This document shows, one piece after another, positions 6,924-17,656 of a stretch of 64,000 nucleotides of DNA. Origin of the DNA: an uncultured Thermoanaerobaculum sp. (GTDB lineage: Bacteria > Acidobacteriota > Thermoanaerobaculia > Thermoanaerobaculales > Thermoanaerobaculaceae); NCBI GenBank assembly GCA_937934115.1, contig CALHAH010000009.1:1-64000 (forward strand). The letters run 5' to 3'. A program made the position numbers and the translations under genes. A model generated the notes under the pieces. It saw nothing but the letters and a program-made list of their open reading frames with translations. It did not search any database and was not told the DNA's origin. Numbering within the stretch: position 1 is the first letter of the stretch; the number at the start of each line of letters is the position of its first letter.

Positions 6924-7298
6924 ATGAGGCGGGCGGCACTGTTCGGGGTGGTGGTTGTGATCCTCGCTTCTTGCGCCAGTCAGCAAGGCGCGATGGCGGC
7001 GCGGGAGCAAATGCGCCAAGGAGTAGAGGCAGCATTGGCCGGCTTGTGGCAGGAGGCGGCCTTTCGTTTTGAGCGGGCGCGGGCTATGGGCGGAGAAAGC
7101 CCGGAGCTTTTGAACAACTTGGCAGTGGCCTACGAAGCCTTGGGCCGTTACGAGGAGGCACTGGCCACCTACAAACGAGCCCTGGAGCTTTCGCCGCACA
7201 ACTCCCGCATCCGCCGGAATTACGCCCGCTTTGCGGAGTTTTACGCTTCCTACATCCGCGGGATTCGGCCCAAAGGGGGGGACGATGCGAGGCTTTAG
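6924..7298 (+). CDS. TPR-containing lipoprotein
   Basis: A 124-residue protein with a lipoprotein signal (MRRAALFGVVVVILASCAS, lipobox Cys at 17) and then two to three tetratricopeptide helices, e.g. SPELLNNLAVAYEALGRYEE and ALATYKRALELSPHNSRIRR. Such small TPR lipoproteins usually act as adaptors in envelope complexes; here the partners would be the two genes that follow. The ATG has a GGGGGACGGG ribosome-binding region upstream. Its last 14 bp overlap the next gene, so the two are translationally linked. Confidence 0.85.
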   Translation: MRRAALFGVVVVILASCASQQGAMAAREQMRQGVEAALAGLWQEAAFRFERARAMGGESPELLNNLAVAYEALGRYEEALATYKRALELSPHNSRIRRNYARFAEFYASYIRGIRPKGGDDARL

Positions 7299-7971
7299 GT
7301 GGGTATGGGGGCTGGTGGTGCCGGCTGTGGCCGTGGCCGGGGTACGAGAAGTGGAAATCTCCTTACCGGTGCGACCCAAGCTTTTGCTCACCGGCCACGA
7401 AAGGGTGTACCTCGGTCCCTTCATTCGTGAATCGCCAAAAGCCGATGTACCGCAGCAGAAGCTGGGCTTTGACGTGACCCAGGAGTTCGAGCGTTACTTG
7501 CGGCGACTTTTGCGGCGGGAATCCAAGCTCCAGCTTTTGCCACCGGTGGAGGGTTTGCGTGCCCCCGGGGGGGACGCTCTCTCCCTGGCGCGCGCTACCC
7601 AGTTTTGGCGGGAGCTAGGCTCGCAAACAGGAGCGGATCTCATCGTGGCGGGAAGCGTCGACTTCCAAGTTCAGGACCGCTCTGGGTACAAAACCGAGGA
7701 GTACGTTTCGCCCATTGACGGGCGCACGTACTACCGCCAAGTATTGGTGGAGCAGACCGGGTTTTCCTACGACATCCTGCTACAGGTGTTCGACGGACGA
7801 ACCGGGTCCCTGCTTTTGGAGCAACCCCTTAAGGATTTCCAGGAGCGGGCAGAGCGCAGTTTTGACGAGTTTGTTGGCATGTTCTCTAACCTTTACGCCT
7901 TGGAGAACCAGCTTATTGGCATTTTTGTCCCACGTACCGTAAAGAGCAAACGCATCTTGTTTACCGAGTAG
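7285..7971 (+). CDS. Secreted protein of unknown function
   Basis: I do not recognise this 228-residue protein. It starts with a signal peptide (MRGFRWVWGLVVPAVAVAG, cleavage about residue 19). The rest reads as a periplasmic alpha/beta domain: FDVTQEFERYLRRLLRRESK, then a GADLIVAGSVDFQVQD strand pair and TGFSYDILLQVFDGRTGSLL. This resembles proteins that bind or assemble at the outer membrane (compare CsgG- or DUF-type domains that begin from a conserved 'GADLIVAGSV' strand). That comparison is structural impression only. It sits between the TPR lipoprotein and the barrel protein, 9 bp from the latter, preceded by GGGGGG as ribosome-binding site. Confidence 0.75.
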   Translation: MRGFRWVWGLVVPAVAVAGVREVEISLPVRPKLLLTGHERVYLGPFIRESPKADVPQQKLGFDVTQEFERYLRRLLRRESKLQLLPPVEGLRAPGGDALSLARATQFWRELGSQTGADLIVAGSVDFQVQDRSGYKTEEYVSPIDGRTYYRQVLVEQTGFSYDILLQVFDGRTGSLLLEQPLKDFQERAERSFDEFVGMFSNLYALENQLIGIFVPRTVKSKRILFTE

Positions 7972-7980
7972 GGGGCGATT

Positions 7981-10809
7981 ATGCGTGGGTATTTCTTCTT
8001 GTTTGGCCTGCTGGTGGCGGCCGCTGGGTACGGGCAGTACTTTGGCAAGAACAAGGTCCGTTACGACACCTTCGTCTGGCAGGAGCTTGCCACCCCGCAC
8101 TTTCGCATTTCTTTTTACGACCGGGTGGAGCCGCAGCTAGGCAAGGTGGCTTCTTTTGCCGAAAGTGCCTACGACGAGCTCGCCCGTAAGCTCAATTTCC
8201 AAATTCCTGAGCCCATCCCCCTCATTGCCTACGCCACCCACGCCGAGTTTGAGCAAACCAACGTCATCATTGAAGGTATCCCAGAAGGTGTGGGGGCCTT
8301 TGCGGTGCCCGCCCGCAACCGCATGGTGCTGCCGGTGGATTTGCCCGATGCCGAGCTGCAAAAGCTCATCCAGCACGAGCTCGTGCACATCTTCCAATAC
8401 GAGATCCTGTTCCAAGGGAAACTGGGGAAGGCCATTACCACCAACATCCCCCAGTGGTTCATGGAAGGTATGGCCTCGTACTTGGCCCAGGATGAGGATT
8501 CCCGTGCGAGAGCGGTGATGCGAGATGCTACCCTTGCCGATCGCGTTCCCTCGGTGGCTGATAACGTCACCGGTTACTTCGCGTACCGCTTTGGGCATAT
8601 GGTCTTCGCCTTTGTGGAGAGCGAGTGGGGGGTGGAGGGGCTACGGGATTTCATCTTTGAAACTCGCAACACCCTCACCGGCGCTGTGGATAAGGCCTTA
8701 AAACGCGCCTTTGATTTGGATGTGGAGGAGTTCGACGCCCGTTTCCGGGCGTGGCTGCGCAAGAAGTACCAGGCGGTGGCGTTGGAGCGGGGGGACCCGC
8801 GGGAGTTTGGGCCTGCCTTTCGCATCGAGGAAGGGGTGCGCTCGGCGGAGGCCTCGCCCACCGTTTCCCCTTCCGGAGAGCTGGTCGCTGCGTTTACCAC
8901 CTACAAGGGCGATGTGGATGTGGCGCTGTTTTCGGTGCCCAAGCGCAAGCTTTTCAAAAACCTCACCCGCGGTTACACCACCCGTTACGAGTACCTTGTC
9001 GCCCAGCTTTTTACCGTGGGGCCTGACCGTGGGCGGGATTTGGCCTTTTCCCCCGATGGCGACACCGTTGCGGTTTTTGCCCGCAGCGGCCGAGGGCGCG
9101 TCCTCCTGCTCTTGGATGCCTTGCGGGGGGGTATCCGGCGAGAGTATCCCATACCCCAGGACCAGGCAATGGAGCCGGCCTTCTCCCCCGATGGCAAGAC
9201 TGTTGCCTTTCATGCTTTTGCCAACGGGCAAGCCGATATTTACCTCTTGGATCTAGCCAGCGGCACGGTACAGAACCTCACCAACGACCCCGCTTACGAC
9301 GCGGCGCCGGTTTTTTCCCCTGACGGCCAGTACTTGGTCTACTCCTCCCAAAGCGGAGAAAACGCCAAGCTTTTTCAGTTAGAGCTTGCCAACCCCCAAA
9401 ACCGGCTGCAGCTCACTTTTGGCCCTGGGGATGACGAAGGCGCCAGCTTTTCCCGGGACGGCAAGGCCCTTTACTTTGCTTCCGACCGCGACCAGGGGGT
9501 TTTTGACGTTTACCGCTTGGACTTGCAAACCCGCAAACTCACGCGTCTCACCAAAGTCATTGGCGCGGCGTTGAACCCCGTGCCGGTGGTGACCAAAGAC
9601 GGCGAGCGGGTGGTTTACCAAGCCTATACCAAGGGTCGCTGGCAGCTATACCTCACGGATCCTGAGCAAGGGGAAGAGGTGGGGGAGGAGAAGGCCCCGG
9701 CGGCTGTGCAAAAGCGTGAAGTGTTTGTGCCGGCTATCACCGTGCCGGTGAGTAGGGAGAAGATCTCACCGGTGAAGGGGCACAAGCTTTTTGCTGATAA
9801 CGTGCAAGTGGCGGTGCAGTTTTCCGAAGACCAAACGCTTATTTCCCAGGCTTTTCTTTCCTTTGCCGATCACTACGGTGACCGTCGCCTCAACGTGCTT
9901 TTGCAGTCGGTTTCTGGTTACTCCAACTTTCAGGCTGCTTATATCAATTTGGAAAAGCGGTGGCAGTGGGGGGTAACGGCTTTCGATGACCGTTCTTACT
10001 TTGTGGCGGCCGACACTTTTACCGGAAGAGAGGTGCGTCTCAAGAGGCTGTACCGGGAAACCGGAGGCGCGCTTTTTGCGCAATACCCCTTTTCCCTTTA
10101 CCTGCGCGCGGAAGCGGCAGCTGGCTACATTTACCGCGACATTGATTACCCTGTGCTATTTGGCGGTCAGGTCTTCTTCATCCCCATCACTGACAACATT
10201 CCCTTCCTGCAGGCTGGATTAACGGGCGACACGACGGGGTGGAACCAGTACGGGCCGCATTGGGGGCGGCGGTGGTCGTTGCTTGTGGCGCAAGCCTTCG
10301 ATGCTAAAAACGGCGGCACCCTATCGCGGGAGGTGCGCTTGGACGCGCGCCAATACGTACCACTTTCCCGCCGTAACGAGCTGGCCTTTCGCCTTTTTGC
10401 TGCGGTGGCCGATGGCAACCGCCCCAGCATCTTTTACTTTGGCGGTGTGGACACCTTGCGGGGCTTCGATTACCGCTCGGTGCTGGGCAACCAAGCGGCT
10501 TACTTTAACGCCGAGTGGCGTTTCCCGCTGATTGATCATTTGGTCCTTCCCTGGTTGCACTTGCGGGATTTTCGGGGGCGGTTCTTCTTGGATGTGGGCG
10601 CCGCCAGAATCGATGTTCCGGGGTTGAGAGAGCCTTTCCGCTTCATGAAGGACGGTCAGCTCCAGGACGGTCTTTCCTCCTACGGCTTTGGTTTTTCCTT
10701 GGAGCTGTTTGGTTTGCCGGTGCATTGGGACTTTGCTAAGCGCTGGGACTTCAAAAAGACCCGAGACAAAGGCTTCAACACCAGCTTCTGGATTGGATTC
10801 CGGTACTAA
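7981..10809 (+). CDS. Secreted peptidase-MA/TolB-propeller/outer-membrane barrel protein
   Basis: A 942-residue three-part surface protein. After a signal peptide (residues 1-19), residues about 30-260 form a zinc metallopeptidase domain of the MA type with QHELVHIFQY (HExxH at 132-136) and a downstream Glu in QWFMEGMASYLA (Glu162), the gluzincin arrangement. Residues about 275-570 hold five to six TolB/PD40-like propeller blades with repeated SPDG motifs (FSPDGDTVAVFA, FSPDGKTVAFHA, FSPDGQYLVYSS). The last 350 residues are beta-strand rich and end in FWIGFRY, a C-terminal aromatic like that of BamA/D15-type outer-membrane barrels. The parts predict a barrel-anchored protease with a substrate- or partner-binding propeller. 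Third gene of the operon that starts at 6924. Confidence 0.85.
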   Translation: MRGYFFLFGLLVAAAGYGQYFGKNKVRYDTFVWQELATPHFRISFYDRVEPQLGKVASFAESAYDELARKLNFQIPEPIPLIAYATHAEFEQTNVIIEGIPEGVGAFAVPARNRMVLPVDLPDAELQKLIQHELVHIFQYEILFQGKLGKAITTNIPQWFMEGMASYLAQDEDSRARAVMRDATLADRVPSVADNVTGYFAYRFGHMVFAFVESEWGVEGLRDFIFETRNTLTGAVDKALKRAFDLDVEEFDARFRAWLRKKYQAVALERGDPREFGPAFRIEEGVRSAEASPTVSPSGELVAAFTTYKGDVDVALFSVPKRKLFKNLTRGYTTRYEYLVAQLFTVGPDRGRDLAFSPDGDTVAVFARSGRGRVLLLLDALRGGIRREYPIPQDQAMEPAFSPDGKTVAFHAFANGQADIYLLDLASGTVQNLTNDPAYDAAPVFSPDGQYLVYSSQSGENAKLFQLELANPQNRLQLTFGPGDDEGASFSRDGKALYFASDRDQGVFDVYRLDLQTRKLTRLTKVIGAALNPVPVVTKDGERVVYQAYTKGRWQLYLTDPEQGEEVGEEKAPAAVQKREVFVPAITVPVSREKISPVKGHKLFADNVQVAVQFSEDQTLISQAFLSFADHYGDRRLNVLLQSVSGYSNFQAAYINLEKRWQWGVTAFDDRSYFVAADTFTGREVRLKRLYRETGGALFAQYPFSLYLRAEAAAGYIYRDIDYPVLFGGQVFFIPITDNIPFLQAGLTGDTTGWNQYGPHWGRRWSLLVAQAFDAKNGGTLSREVRLDARQYVPLSRRNELAFRLFAAVADGNRPSIFYFGGVDTLRGFDYRSVLGNQAAYFNAEWRFPLIDHLVLPWLHLRDFRGRFFLDVGAARIDVPGLREPFRFMKDGQLQDGLSSYGFGFSLELFGLPVHWDFAKRWDFKKTRDKGFNTSFWIGFRY

Positions 10810-13747: not shown

Positions 13748-16700
13748 TTACGGAGCCAAATCCACCACCGTTTCCTGTCCGGGGGCGAGGCTAAAAACCT
13801 TGCTTTCCACGTGCTCCCCCTTGCGCACCAAGAGGCGGTAGTTGCCAGCGGGGAGGGACAGCCTCCAGGTGGCGTCCAGCTGACGCCAACCACCGCTGGT
13901 GCCCATCCCCCGAAAGCCCCAAGGCACCGGGAGCCCATCGGCGGTCACCACCTGCACCTGCGCTGGCGTTGCCCCAGGCTCCACCAGCAAAAAGCCCCGC
14001 GGCTGAAGCTGGATGTGAACCTTGGAAGGTACGAGAAAGCGCACTACCGCAGCTCCTTGCCCTTGAATCCAACCCACGTACTGCCCCGGCGGAAGCTGGG
14101 TGACGATGCCCCGCCCTTCCCGGTCGAGGGTCACGAACACCGGCTGGGGTTCTCCGGAAGGGCCTTGCACGTTGGCGAAGACCTCTCCAGGAATACTGCC
14201 GTCGGCATCCCGCACGAAAAGCTCGAGGGTTTGCTGGGGTTCCAAAAGCAGCTCCACCTCCTGCGGGGTTTCGTTCACGGTGACTTGGGCTTCCGCCGGC
14301 GAGTAGCCGGGAGCGCTGGCGCGGACCCGGAAAACTTGGCCAGTGGGGAGCTCGTGGAAGGCAAAACCGCCCGCCTCATCGCCAGAGGTGCGGCGCATGA
14401 AACCCGTTTGCCCGGGAATTTCGAGCGTTACCTGGGCTTCGGAAACCGGCTCACGGTTCGCTCGGTTGCGCACCCACCCGGAGAGGGTGCCTTCGGGGAG
14501 CTGCAGCGAAACCTGTGTGTCCCTTTGTGCCTCTAGCTCTCGCGTAAGCAACACCTGGCCATTGGGATCGCTCACCGACAGCGTCCACTTCCCGGGGGCA
14601 AGGCCGGAAAGCGCAAACCTTCCACCCTCATCGGTGGTGTCCGCGGCGCGGTCCATGGGCGAGGAACCACTCCCCGCAACCAGGTACCCCACCAGCGGCT
14701 GCGCTCCCCGCCGCACGCTTCCCGCAATGGTGATCCCCTGGCTGAAGTCCACCTCCACCTGGGCAGGGGAGCCTTCCTGCACGTCCACCGTTACCCGCCG
14801 CGTTTTCCCCAGAGGGAAAACCGAAACCATGAGTTCCTGCTTTCCTGTGGGCACGCCCTTGAGCTGGAAGCTGCCGTCGGCCGCCACCTGGGTTCTGCTC
14901 GTCCCTGCCCACGCTTGACAGCGGGCTAGTTCCTGTAAAGAAAGGCCGCGCACGACCCCCACGATCTCCCCGCCCCGGGAAAGCTTGAGGGTCACGGAAG
15001 TGGTCCCCTGGGGGCCGACGTTGATCCTCTCGCCGTCAGCGGCAAAACGCTCCAGACTAGCAGTCACGTAGTACGTGCCGGGGGGTACCTCCTGGAAGCG
15101 AGCTAACCCTGCGGCGTCGGTGAGGCGATGAAAGAGGTTGGCCCCGATTGTCGAAGCTTCCACCTTGGCCCCGGCCAGAGGCTCTCCTTGGGGTCCCACC
15201 ACCCGCACCTCCAAGCTGCCCGGAGACCCGAGGTGGAGCTCGGCTTCCGCATCGCTGCTGATATCCAAGGTCACCCGGTCTTGCCCGCCTTCAGGGCTTT
15301 GCGCTTCCACCGTGAACTTGCCAGGTTTGAGGCCGCTGAGCAGGAACTGGCCTTGGCCGTCGGTAATCGTACCGAGCGGTCTCTGCAGTACAGCCATCAT
15401 CGCGCCTACGTTGCGTTCCCCGGCTTCACGCGCCGTCACCGTGACCCCCACCGCAGGCCTCCCGTCCGCTTCCCACACCCGCCCCCGCAGCGTGAACCCT
15501 CGTTCCAGCTGCACCAGCATCAACCGCAAGGGCTCGTCCTCCTTCAAAGGTACGGTGCGTTGCGCCGGGGCATACCCTGGAGCCCTCACGTCCAGTCGCA
15601 CATCCCCGCTTTGGGCGAGGGGTACCTCAAAGAACCCGTCCTGGTCAGAGGTGGTGGGGGTAATGGGCACGGCACTTTGCATCGTAAAGCCCCCCACACT
15701 ACGCGTCAGGAGATGACCACCCCAAACCTCAGCGTTAGCCACCGGCTCCCCGGTTTCCTTGTCCACCACCCTTCCTTTGAGGGTTCTTCCCGCTTTCACC
15801 ACTAGCTCCACGGGTCCGCTGGGGGGTAGCGTGACCTTCATCGGCGGTGCGGAAGATTCCCGCGAGCGCGCTTGCACGTACAAAACCCCCTCGTTGGGAA
15901 CGTCCCTCAGCTGAAACTGACCGTCGGCTTCGCTTCGCGTGTCGTACTCGAAGGGCACGTCCGCGTTGGCACCGGCCAACACCGTGACGTTGGGCACTCC
16001 CTGGCCGCGCGCATCCACCACCCGTCCGGTAATGGTAATTCCAGCCTGAAGTGTGACATCACCCAGGTGTTTCCCTTCCTGCGGCAACGTGACCTTTTGG
16101 GTGTGGGTCACGAACCCCGCCTTTTGCACCAAAAGCTCTAAAAGACCCACCGGCAAGTTGGCAAGAACAGCACGCCCTTCCCTGTCGGTTTCGGTTCTCG
16201 CCAGCGGCGGTTCAAAGGAACGGCCCACGCGGAACATAACCCTGGGTCCATCCTCCTGGCCCTCCCTAACCTCCACTTCGGCACCGGGGATCGGGGTCGC
16301 CCTTGCGTCCACCACCCGCAAGCTCAAGCTGGTGCCGGGGGCGAGGGTGAGGGTTACGGGCAGGGTCTCCTTGCTTTTGGGGCTCAGCTTTCCGGAATCA
16401 GCGCGACCCAAAGCCGGGTGGGTAGCGAAAAGCCGCAGTTCCCCGGCAGTCACAGGAAAAGGCCCGAAGCGGCCGTCCTCGCCGCTTACCCACACGGGTT
16501 CTGGCAGCAACCGGCTGGAGGTGCGAACGCGTCTGGAGAAAAACGACGCCACCCGGCTTTCCTCGCTCCAAACCGGCACACCCGGGGCGGGGGAGCCGCG
16601 CTGGTCCAGGACCTTGCCTTCGATCCAAGCTTGCGGGGAAAGACGGACCCCCAGCGTCTGGTTGGAAAAATCTGCAGACAAAACAACGGGGTCGTAACCG

Positions 16701-17656
16701 TAAGCCACAACCTCCAGCTCACCCCCCGGGGCAATAAACGGCACCTGCCCACCCGTGCCGGGTACCAAAAGCGGCCCGCCGGTGAGGGCGGCGGGGAGCC
16801 AGCGGGGAAAAACCAAGAGGCTGGGGTAGGGTTGCGCCGTAACCAGCGGCAGATTGCCTACGGGGCGGAGAACGATCTTGGCGGCAGCATCATTTACCCG
16901 GGCCGAGCCTCCCTGAGAACCGGTCCAAGCCACCACTCGGCCTTGCCACCACTCGGGAAGGGCAAGCGTGGCCTTCCCGTCCGGCCCTGTCACTGCAGCC
17001 GTTCCCACTGGCGTACCTTCCGCTGCCACCCGCACGTCGGCTTGTGGTTTCCCTTGGGTGTCGTGGACCGCAACCGTGACCGTGCGACAACGGAGGTCCA
17101 CGTTGCCTCCCTTGGCTTCTGTCACGCTGGTAAAGGCAAAGCAGCCGGATTCTGCCAGTAGCGTCAAGCGCGGGGTCGCACCTGGTGGCACGGCCAGGTT
17201 GATGGTTTTCCCCATTTCCGCCCAGGTGGTAGCCACGGCCCAGCGCCAGCGCCCCACGCGTTCGCTTGCCTCCCGGTCCATCACCAGCACGTTGCCCTTG
17301 CCGCCGGCGCCGGTGACCCGCAAGCTGCCAGTGACGGCTTTAGGTAGCCACAGCGGCGGCAGTGCGGCTTGCGCGGGAAGCCAAACCTCCACAACCCCTG
17401 CTCCATGCCCGAGAGCCGACACCTCTACCCGCACCGGAAAGGAATCCACCTCCACCGTGAACGCGGTAGCCGGTGCCACCTCAAAGGTGCGCAAGGGCTT
17501 GCCCAGTTGTTGCGGGGAGACCACGCTCCTTGCCCCCAGCGGGAACACTTGCACTGTGGCCCTTTGGCAGTGGGCTTCGCAGTACACGGTGCCGGAAAGC
17601 TTTTGGGGAGCCGAGGCGTTTGATAGAGTCAACAGCAACGCTAGGGCAGGGGTCAT
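13748..17656 (-). CDS. Large secreted carboxypeptidase-regulatory-like repeat protein
   Basis: A 1302-residue secreted protein built almost wholly of beta-sandwich modules of the CarboxypepD_reg/SpaA-like type. A short signal (MTPALALLLTLSNASA) leads the protein. At least ten modules recur with variants of GxVxDxxGxPVxGAxV, e.g. ITGRVVDARGQGVPNVTVLA, LKGRVVDKETGEPVANAEVW and LRGRVWEADGRPAVGVTVTA, each followed by a 'TDxxGxFxLxxLPxGxYxL' strand. No enzyme motif or cell-wall anchor is visible. Such proteins are common and expanded in Acidobacteriota and probably mediate surface binding; the ligand is unknown. The start has a GGGAGGTG ribosome-binding site, and a TTGGCT-17-TAAAAT promoter lies just upstream. 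Confidence 0.88.
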   Translation of the reverse strand: MTPALALLLTLSNASAPQKLSGTVYCEAHCQRATVQVFPLGARSVVSPQQLGKPLRTFEVAPATAFTVEVDSFPVRVEVSALGHGAGVVEVWLPAQAALPPLWLPKAVTGSLRVTGAGGKGNVLVMDREASERVGRWRWAVATTWAEMGKTINLAVPPGATPRLTLLAESGCFAFTSVTEAKGGNVDLRCRTVTVAVHDTQGKPQADVRVAAEGTPVGTAAVTGPDGKATLALPEWWQGRVVAWTGSQGGSARVNDAAAKIVLRPVGNLPLVTAQPYPSLLVFPRWLPAALTGGPLLVPGTGGQVPFIAPGGELEVVAYGYDPVVLSADFSNQTLGVRLSPQAWIEGKVLDQRGSPAPGVPVWSEESRVASFFSRRVRTSSRLLPEPVWVSGEDGRFGPFPVTAGELRLFATHPALGRADSGKLSPKSKETLPVTLTLAPGTSLSLRVVDARATPIPGAEVEVREGQEDGPRVMFRVGRSFEPPLARTETDREGRAVLANLPVGLLELLVQKAGFVTHTQKVTLPQEGKHLGDVTLQAGITITGRVVDARGQGVPNVTVLAGANADVPFEYDTRSEADGQFQLRDVPNEGVLYVQARSRESSAPPMKVTLPPSGPVELVVKAGRTLKGRVVDKETGEPVANAEVWGGHLLTRSVGGFTMQSAVPITPTTSDQDGFFEVPLAQSGDVRLDVRAPGYAPAQRTVPLKEDEPLRLMLVQLERGFTLRGRVWEADGRPAVGVTVTAREAGERNVGAMMAVLQRPLGTITDGQGQFLLSGLKPGKFTVEAQSPEGGQDRVTLDISSDAEAELHLGSPGSLEVRVVGPQGEPLAGAKVEASTIGANLFHRLTDAAGLARFQEVPPGTYYVTASLERFAADGERINVGPQGTTSVTLKLSRGGEIVGVVRGLSLQELARCQAWAGTSRTQVAADGSFQLKGVPTGKQELMVSVFPLGKTRRVTVDVQEGSPAQVEVDFSQGITIAGSVRRGAQPLVGYLVAGSGSSPMDRAADTTDEGGRFALSGLAPGKWTLSVSDPNGQVLLTRELEAQRDTQVSLQLPEGTLSGWVRNRANREPVSEAQVTLEIPGQTGFMRRTSGDEAGGFAFHELPTGQVFRVRASAPGYSPAEAQVTVNETPQEVELLLEPQQTLELFVRDADGSIPGEVFANVQGPSGEPQPVFVTLDREGRGIVTQLPPGQYVGWIQGQGAAVVRFLVPSKVHIQLQPRGFLLVEPGATPAQVQVVTADGLPVPWGFRGMGTSGGWRQLDATWRLSLPAGNYRLLVRKGEHVESKVFSLAPGQETVVDLAP

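Follow-up and report, generated by a model that had tools for sequence, protein, structure and literature searches.

Fusions of a β-propeller to an Omp85 barrel were named WD40-Omp85 in 2014 by Heinz and Lithgow, who likened them to a fusion of BamA and BamB; the Omp85 superfamily is defined by its barrel (PMC4104836). PlpD, the only studied Omp85 protein with an N-terminal enzyme, keeps its enzyme domain exclusively in the periplasm, and surface exposure or secretion of the enzyme, the hallmark of type Vd, is disputed for PlpD itself (PMC11116518). The periplasmic Zn-metallopeptidase BepA promotes or degrades LptD on the β-barrel assembly machinery (BAM) (PMC8423444), and in Escherichia coli the tetratricopeptide repeat (TPR) protein CpoB regulates LpoB-stimulated PBP1B (PMC7391070). 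Omp85 proteins devoid of POTRA domains are known from sequence, and no function is assigned to them in the literature searched. Here we describe a three-gene operon located in a window of 64,000 nucleotides (the whole stretch of DNA analysed) from an uncultured Thermoanaerobaculum sp. (contig CALHAH010000009.1, positions 1 to 64,000). The products of this operon are a TPR protein, a secreted protein termed p2, and p3, a protein of 942 residues that joins a putative zinc protease, a TolB-type propeller and an Omp85 barrel. The host belongs to the Acidobacteriota, and the closest named loci are those of Thermoanaerobaculum and Thermoanaerobaculaceae metagenome-assembled genomes. We give slightly less than an even chance to the reading that this operon forms a periplasm-facing outer-membrane machine, with the p3 barrel in the outer membrane, the TPR protein and p2 as a partner unit, and client insertion or export combined with proteolysis.

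Architecture of the operon and its products

The operon and the domains of p3 comprise the following features.

6924..7298 (ATG 6924, stop 7298), + strand: TPR protein, 124 amino acids, with signal/lipobox ILASC and about two TPR repeats at residues 39-102 (Pfam TPR)
7285..7971 (ATG 7285, stop 7971), + strand: p2, secreted protein of 228 amino acids, predicted FlgT/CsgG/LpoB/PelC fold (AlphaFold2, Foldseek, Pfam FlgT_M in homologues)
7981..10809 (ATG 7981, stop 10809), + strand: p3, 942 amino acids, with signal peptide, gluzincin domain, TolB-type propeller and 16-strand Omp85 barrel (Pfam, sequence, AlphaFold2 fold)
8077..8787, + strand: p3 residues 33-269, gluzincin (Peptidase_MA_2-like) domain (Pfam PF13485; invariant zinc ligands and catalytic Glu)
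8374-8388 and 8464-8466, + strand: p3 HExxH (H132 E133 xx H136) and E162, invariant across homologue rows
8848..9687, + strand: p3 residues 290-569, TolB-type β-propeller (PD40 repeats at 4e-30; TolB structures by sequence, 4e-24, and by fold)
9790..10794, + strand: p3 residues 604-938, predicted Omp85 (BamA-type) barrel of 16 strands without POTRA (DSSP of the AlphaFold2 model, BamA fold match, Pfam Omp85)

The three open reading frames (ORFs) are co-directional, and those of the TPR protein and p2 overlap by 14 nucleotides; the three-gene operon that a preliminary description had placed at 6924-10809 is indeed there. All three genes are under strong purifying selection, the ratio of non-synonymous to synonymous substitution rates (dN/dS) against the congener G001 being 0.074 for the TPR protein, 0.047 for p2 and 0.044 for p3. 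Chance ORFs are ruled out by these low values (0.04-0.07), together with confident AlphaFold2 (AF2) models that match known folds of the PDB. In one congener (L034:9656-9707, G002:C186), p3 is found in two overlapping frames near residue 672, which reflects a frameshift or an assembly error.

Residues 33-269 of p3 are mostly helical. The window p3 matches Peptidase_MA_2 (PF13485) with an E-value of 1.5e-7, 0.5 bit below the Pfam cutoff, and 15 of the 19 members of the p3 family give a Pfam match to this domain. HExxH and Glu162 occupy exactly the positions first reported for them, and H132, E133, H136 and E162 proved invariant in all homologues examined (118/118 rows). These rows consist of the alignment of 19 relatives, 80 named homologues, 10 distant homologues and 9 solo paralogous ones; some genomes occur both among the relatives and in the named set, and the 118 rows therefore represent about 100 distinct proteins. 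The pattern HEL.H was used to collect part of the named set, which is hence biased for the zinc site. The relatives, found through p2, and the distant and solo forms, found by a full-length profile, are free of this bias. By its sequence, p3 is a gluzincin of the Peptidase MA clan, with HExxH and a downstream Glu ligand, and it is predicted to be catalytically active as a peptidase. No M48 domain is matched by Pfam in p3, where Peptidase_MA_2 is found instead, and the TPR repeats lie on a separate gene, so that the BepA/M48 layout is absent.

The propeller is recognized both through its PD40 repeats (Pfam, 4e-30) and through sequence similarity to TolB structures (4e-24). In the AF2 model of p3 (predicted local distance difference test, pLDDT, 87.5; predicted template modelling score, pTM, 0.84), DSSP counts 16 strands in residues 604-938, and the top PDB fold matches are BamA barrels (template modelling score, TM-score (target), up to 0.66) and TolB. 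Pfam Omp85 is matched at 2e-4 by the window p3 and at best at 3.6e-10 within the family, in which 13 of 19 members give a match. Two Omp85 motifs were located, namely the L6 motif GGxDTLRGF at 821-829 (GGVDTLRGF in the window) and RGRFFxDxG at 865-873 (RGRFFLDVG in the window). R827 and F869 are kept in 96/96 sequences covering them, and the flanking residues G828 and D871 are variable among the distant or solo homologues. With its modelled BamA fold, its L6 motif and its FxDxG, the barrel is assigned to the Omp85 superfamily. The earlier proposal of a peptidase, a TolB-like propeller and a barrel in one protein stands for all three parts, and the barrel can now be specified as a 16-strand, Omp85/BamA-type one. 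Pfam detects no POTRA domain in p3, nor is there room for one between the propeller, which ends at about residue 569, and the barrel, which begins at 604. Because the superfamily is defined by its barrel, this absence excludes p3 only from BamA/TamA/PlpD-type membership.

Neither is p3 a TolB, since it scores 120 against the TolB model, whose cutoff is 343, and TolB_N is encoded on another contig. The host genome contains a POTRA-bearing BamA (C46), a second POTRA-Omp85 (C23) with a large TamB-sized frame upstream, which is TamA-like by context only, and a separate TolB (C43), kept in 34 of 40 relatives including the host. Because the host possesses its own BamA, TamA-like Omp85 and TolB, p3 is an additional Omp85 machine, neither housekeeping BamA nor TolB. 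The presence of the POTRA-bearing BamA rules out p3 as the BamA of the host, and the separate TolB of most relatives rules out p2 and p3 as a split TolB replacing the genuine one. The host BamA gene (G000:C46, L056:3410-9177) directly adjoins that of a tricorn-type protease with propeller, PDZ and S41 domains, which is another protease-propeller beside an Omp85 gene.

The second protein of the operon had been regarded as a secreted protein of unknown fold. Its AF2 model (pLDDT 90) retrieves FlgT, chlamydial CT253, PelC, GNA1162, CsgG and LpoB with Foldseek (E 9e-7 to 1e-3, probability 1.00 for most, TM-scores of about 0.3-0.6), and Pfam FlgT_M is matched in 45 of 52 p2 homologues (best 5e-8), the window p2 itself being below the cutoff. 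Hence that description is superseded, and p2 is assigned the FlgT/CsgG/LpoB/PelC fold on the basis of its model. The most conserved part of p2 is a long β-hairpin (residues 119-141/148-170) with the tip EEYVSPxDGRTYYRQ; because its end is polar, this hairpin probably serves as a docking arm rather than a membrane strand. The TPR protein has a Pfam TPR match at 3e-12. It carries the lipobox LASC in the window, but a lipobox-like motif is present in just 23 of 78 homologues, so that the name TPR lipoprotein suits the window protein and an obligate lipoprotein is not supported.

The fold of p2, akin to LpoB and FlgT, and the TolB-type propeller of p3 also fit a Tol-Pal-like or LpoB/CpoB-like coupling, in which propeller, p2 and TPR protein would connect peptidoglycan synthesis, or some other envelope machine, with the outer membrane and proteolysis would be regulatory. 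The action of the TPR protein CpoB on LpoB-stimulated PBP1B in E. coli (PMC7391070) speaks for such a scheme. We nevertheless consider it rather unlikely, given that a separate TolB is found in the host and most relatives, that p2 has broad fold matches with many different functions, and that no neighbour of the triad is tied to peptidoglycan.

Gene order, fusion and distribution of the triad

As far as sequence comparison goes, the triad is conserved across the Acidobacteriota: its gene order, checked in relatives, recurs phylum-wide. The preliminary description had named two outcomes that would refute it, an unconserved triad and the loss of zinc ligands from most homologues, and neither is what the comparisons show. 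The genes for the TPR protein, p2 and p3 are adjacent and in the same order in 22 relatives with p2. Among the named loci, p2 precedes p3 in 80/80 and the TPR gene precedes p2 in 78/80, the other two ending at a contig edge. Of the 297 Acidobacteriota genomes sampled, 110 gave a p2 match and 148 a p3 match. p3 is present in 109/110 p2-positive versus 39/187 p2-negative genomes (Fisher p ~3e-46, a value that ignores relatedness and takes presence from an E-value cutoff). Comparison of the listed places indicates that p3 directly adjoins p2 in 68 of the 69 genomes where p2 scores E <= 1.2e-20. Furthermore, several deep clades scored as p2-negative still hold the triad with a highly diverged p2 (L179, L181, L184, L187, L189-L192), and L180 has a gene-sized gap between the TPR gene and p3. 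A single open frame encodes both the TPR protein and p2, with p3 adjoining it, in nine genomes drawn from three families (G071, G092, G146, G169, G185, G209, G261, G292, G300); in another set of families the TPR-p2 pair persists, with p3 elsewhere in the genome.

These observations bear on a further alternative, in which the operon would hold just an ordinary secreted protease, its neighbours would be unrelated to it, and common vertical descent alone would account for the gene order. Vertically inherited housekeeping genes do flank the triad, but this explanation is already disfavoured and appears most improbable, as the order is kept in phylum-deep clades where p2 is almost unrecognizable, TPR and p2 are fused in places, and p2 and p3 co-occur even when unlinked.

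Some clades contain p3-like paralogues without TPR-p2 nearby. Those at L182, L183, L185, L186, L188, L193 and L195-L197 measure about 1,020-1,135 residues and have an intact zinc site and a more variable L6 region. Beyond the phylum, a genome-contig scan yielded at least 405 matches, of which the best 80 are nearly all labelled Acidobacteriota. Plasmids searched with the barrel gave no match, and those searched with the peptidase domain gave one, on the Salinibacter ruber plasmid pSR116 (L225, 7944-9845). This protein, WP_118831798.1, is the sole homologue outside the Acidobacteriota among the matches listed. It is annotated as 'basic secretory protein-like protein' and aligns to positions 5-537 of the p3 profile at 1e-110. 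Like p3, it has the HExxH...E catalytic residues and an N-terminal GKNK motif; unlike p3, this secreted peptidase-propeller lacks the barrel. The next gene encodes a serine carboxypeptidase, which rules out a split protease/barrel pair. The existence of this barrel-less homologue makes the peptidase-propeller a separable unit.

In the window, divergent dprA-like and topA-like genes lie upstream of the triad, and the next gene downstream of p3 is, by inspection, an Nramp-type transporter ORF. A topA-like gene, identified by eye, recurs upstream in 23 of 55 loci examined; the operon therefore lies in an ordinary part of the chromosome that is inherited vertically. Further along, positions 13748-17656 (- strand) encode a protein of 1302 residues, which by inspection contains numerous carboxypeptidase-regulatory-like/Ig-like repeats and seems to be a large, secreted repeat protein.

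The neighbourhood is also relevant to a two-partner-like exporter, in which p3 would translocate a dedicated exoprotein and its protease would process this exoprotein during export. Omp85 barrels include translocators, p3 has a weak ShlB match, and the fold of p2 is common to the export-pore proteins CsgG and PelC. However, no two-partner-secretion cargo gene recurs beside the triad among the loci examined, the neighbours recognized by eye being topA/housekeeping genes upstream and purine-biosynthesis-like genes downstream, and the polar p2 hairpin with its conserved tip is probably unlike the membrane-spanning hairpin of CsgG. We therefore attach a low probability to this explanation.

A candidate machine for outer-membrane proteins

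Most likely, the triad would assemble certain outer-membrane or surface proteins, subject them to proteolytic quality control, or do both, the partner unit being the TPR protein together with p2. This proposal combines the topology of PlpD, the action of BepA on BAM and the likeness to BamA-BamB. p3 would be anchored in the outer membrane by its BamA-type barrel, and its propeller and zinc-protease domain, taking the place of POTRA domains, would hang in the periplasm below the barrel. The TPR protein and p2 may work as one unit that docks on p3, p2 probably via its long conserved hairpin. The propeller, which is BamB/TolB-like, and the TPR protein would catch a client outer-membrane or surface protein; the Omp85 barrel would help its insertion or export, and the gluzincin would trim or destroy it, as BepA does on BAM. 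Complex formation between the three proteins and client handling are both predicted steps of this scheme.

Because the N-terminal enzyme of PlpD is exclusively periplasmic, we take a periplasmic location of the p3 protease and propeller, which both precede the barrel, as the probable default topology (PMC11116518). This departs from the surface-anchored protease of the preliminary description, a type Vd-like version in which the barrel would carry its own peptidase-propeller out by autosecretion and display it as an anchored extracellular protease. An enzyme joined to an Omp85 barrel does resemble the original type Vd idea, and a free secreted peptidase-propeller exists in Salinibacter. Surface display is still unlikely: the very protein on which the type Vd idea was based retains its enzyme in the periplasm, a folded propeller and helical protease of about 550 residues would need to pass through a 16-strand barrel, and both partners are secreted proteins of periplasmic type.

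The dedicated outer-membrane processing or assembly machine suggested at the outset is compatible with the presence of an Omp85 barrel, a TolB propeller and the partners. It stays the best reading, in conditional form, as a BAM-like processing or quality-control module that would act like BamA, BamB and BepA combined, in the WD40-Omp85 branch. Three observations weigh against it. The p3-like paralogues without adjoining TPR-p2 indicate that p3 may act alone. Additionally, about half of the sampled Acidobacteriota score without p3 at the threshold used, so that p3 is not a core assembly factor. Finally, the barrel-less Salinibacter protein implies that barrel assembly is not a necessary role of the catalytic unit. 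A bolder version, which we put forward tentatively and hold to be possible rather than probable, is an undescribed, phylum-conserved machine beside canonical BAM that would bring three activities together in a single complex: folding or insertion by the Omp85 barrel, recognition of clients by the propeller, the TPR protein and the CsgG-fold partner, and irreversible proteolysis by the gluzincin.

Relation to described systems

Several known systems share parts of this organization. E. coli BAM with BepA includes a BamA-type barrel, a propeller (BamB), a TPR protein (BamD) and a Zn-metallopeptidase (BepA), as the triad does; in contrast to the triad, these are separate proteins, BepA is an M48 peptidase with its own TPR, BamA has POTRAs and there is no FlgT/CsgG-fold partner. 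PlpD, a patatin-Omp85 protein, likewise has an enzyme at the N-terminus and an Omp85 barrel at the C-terminus of one chain, but it is a lipase with a POTRA domain and no propeller, and the accessible text on it describes no TPR or p2 partners. TolB of Tol-Pal has the propeller closest to that of p3 by sequence and fold, and also an N-terminal α/β domain, whereas the true TolB is encoded elsewhere in the host genome. The FlgT/CsgG/LpoB/PelC/GNA1162 family shares its fold with p2, 45 of 52 p2 members matching Pfam FlgT_M, but has different partners, and the window p2 falls below the Pfam cutoff.

In domain layout p3 resembles the WD40-Omp85 subfamily, in which, as in p3, an N-terminal TolB-like propeller directly precedes the Omp85 barrel and POTRA is absent. 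p3 has this fusion of an N-terminal WD40/TolB-like propeller to an Omp85 barrel. The text available of the WD40-Omp85 paper makes no mention of a gluzincin domain, a TPR protein, p2 or Acidobacteria (PMC4104836). The literature searched yielded no account of the gluzincin domain, of a TPR protein and a FlgT/CsgG-fold protein as constant partners, of the TPR-p2 fusion or of the phylum-wide distribution. The initial view that this is not a named system is thus right for the triad, the name WD40-Omp85 covering propeller-Omp85 fusions alone. Those fusions were already known; the gluzincin domain, the two constant partners, the TPR-p2 fusion and the phylum-wide spread are apparently new. To the POTRA-less Omp85 proteins, the triad adds an intact, invariant protease site, two partners linked by order, fusion and co-occurrence, and a fold for p2, and it makes the role of these proteins testable in a defined three-gene set.

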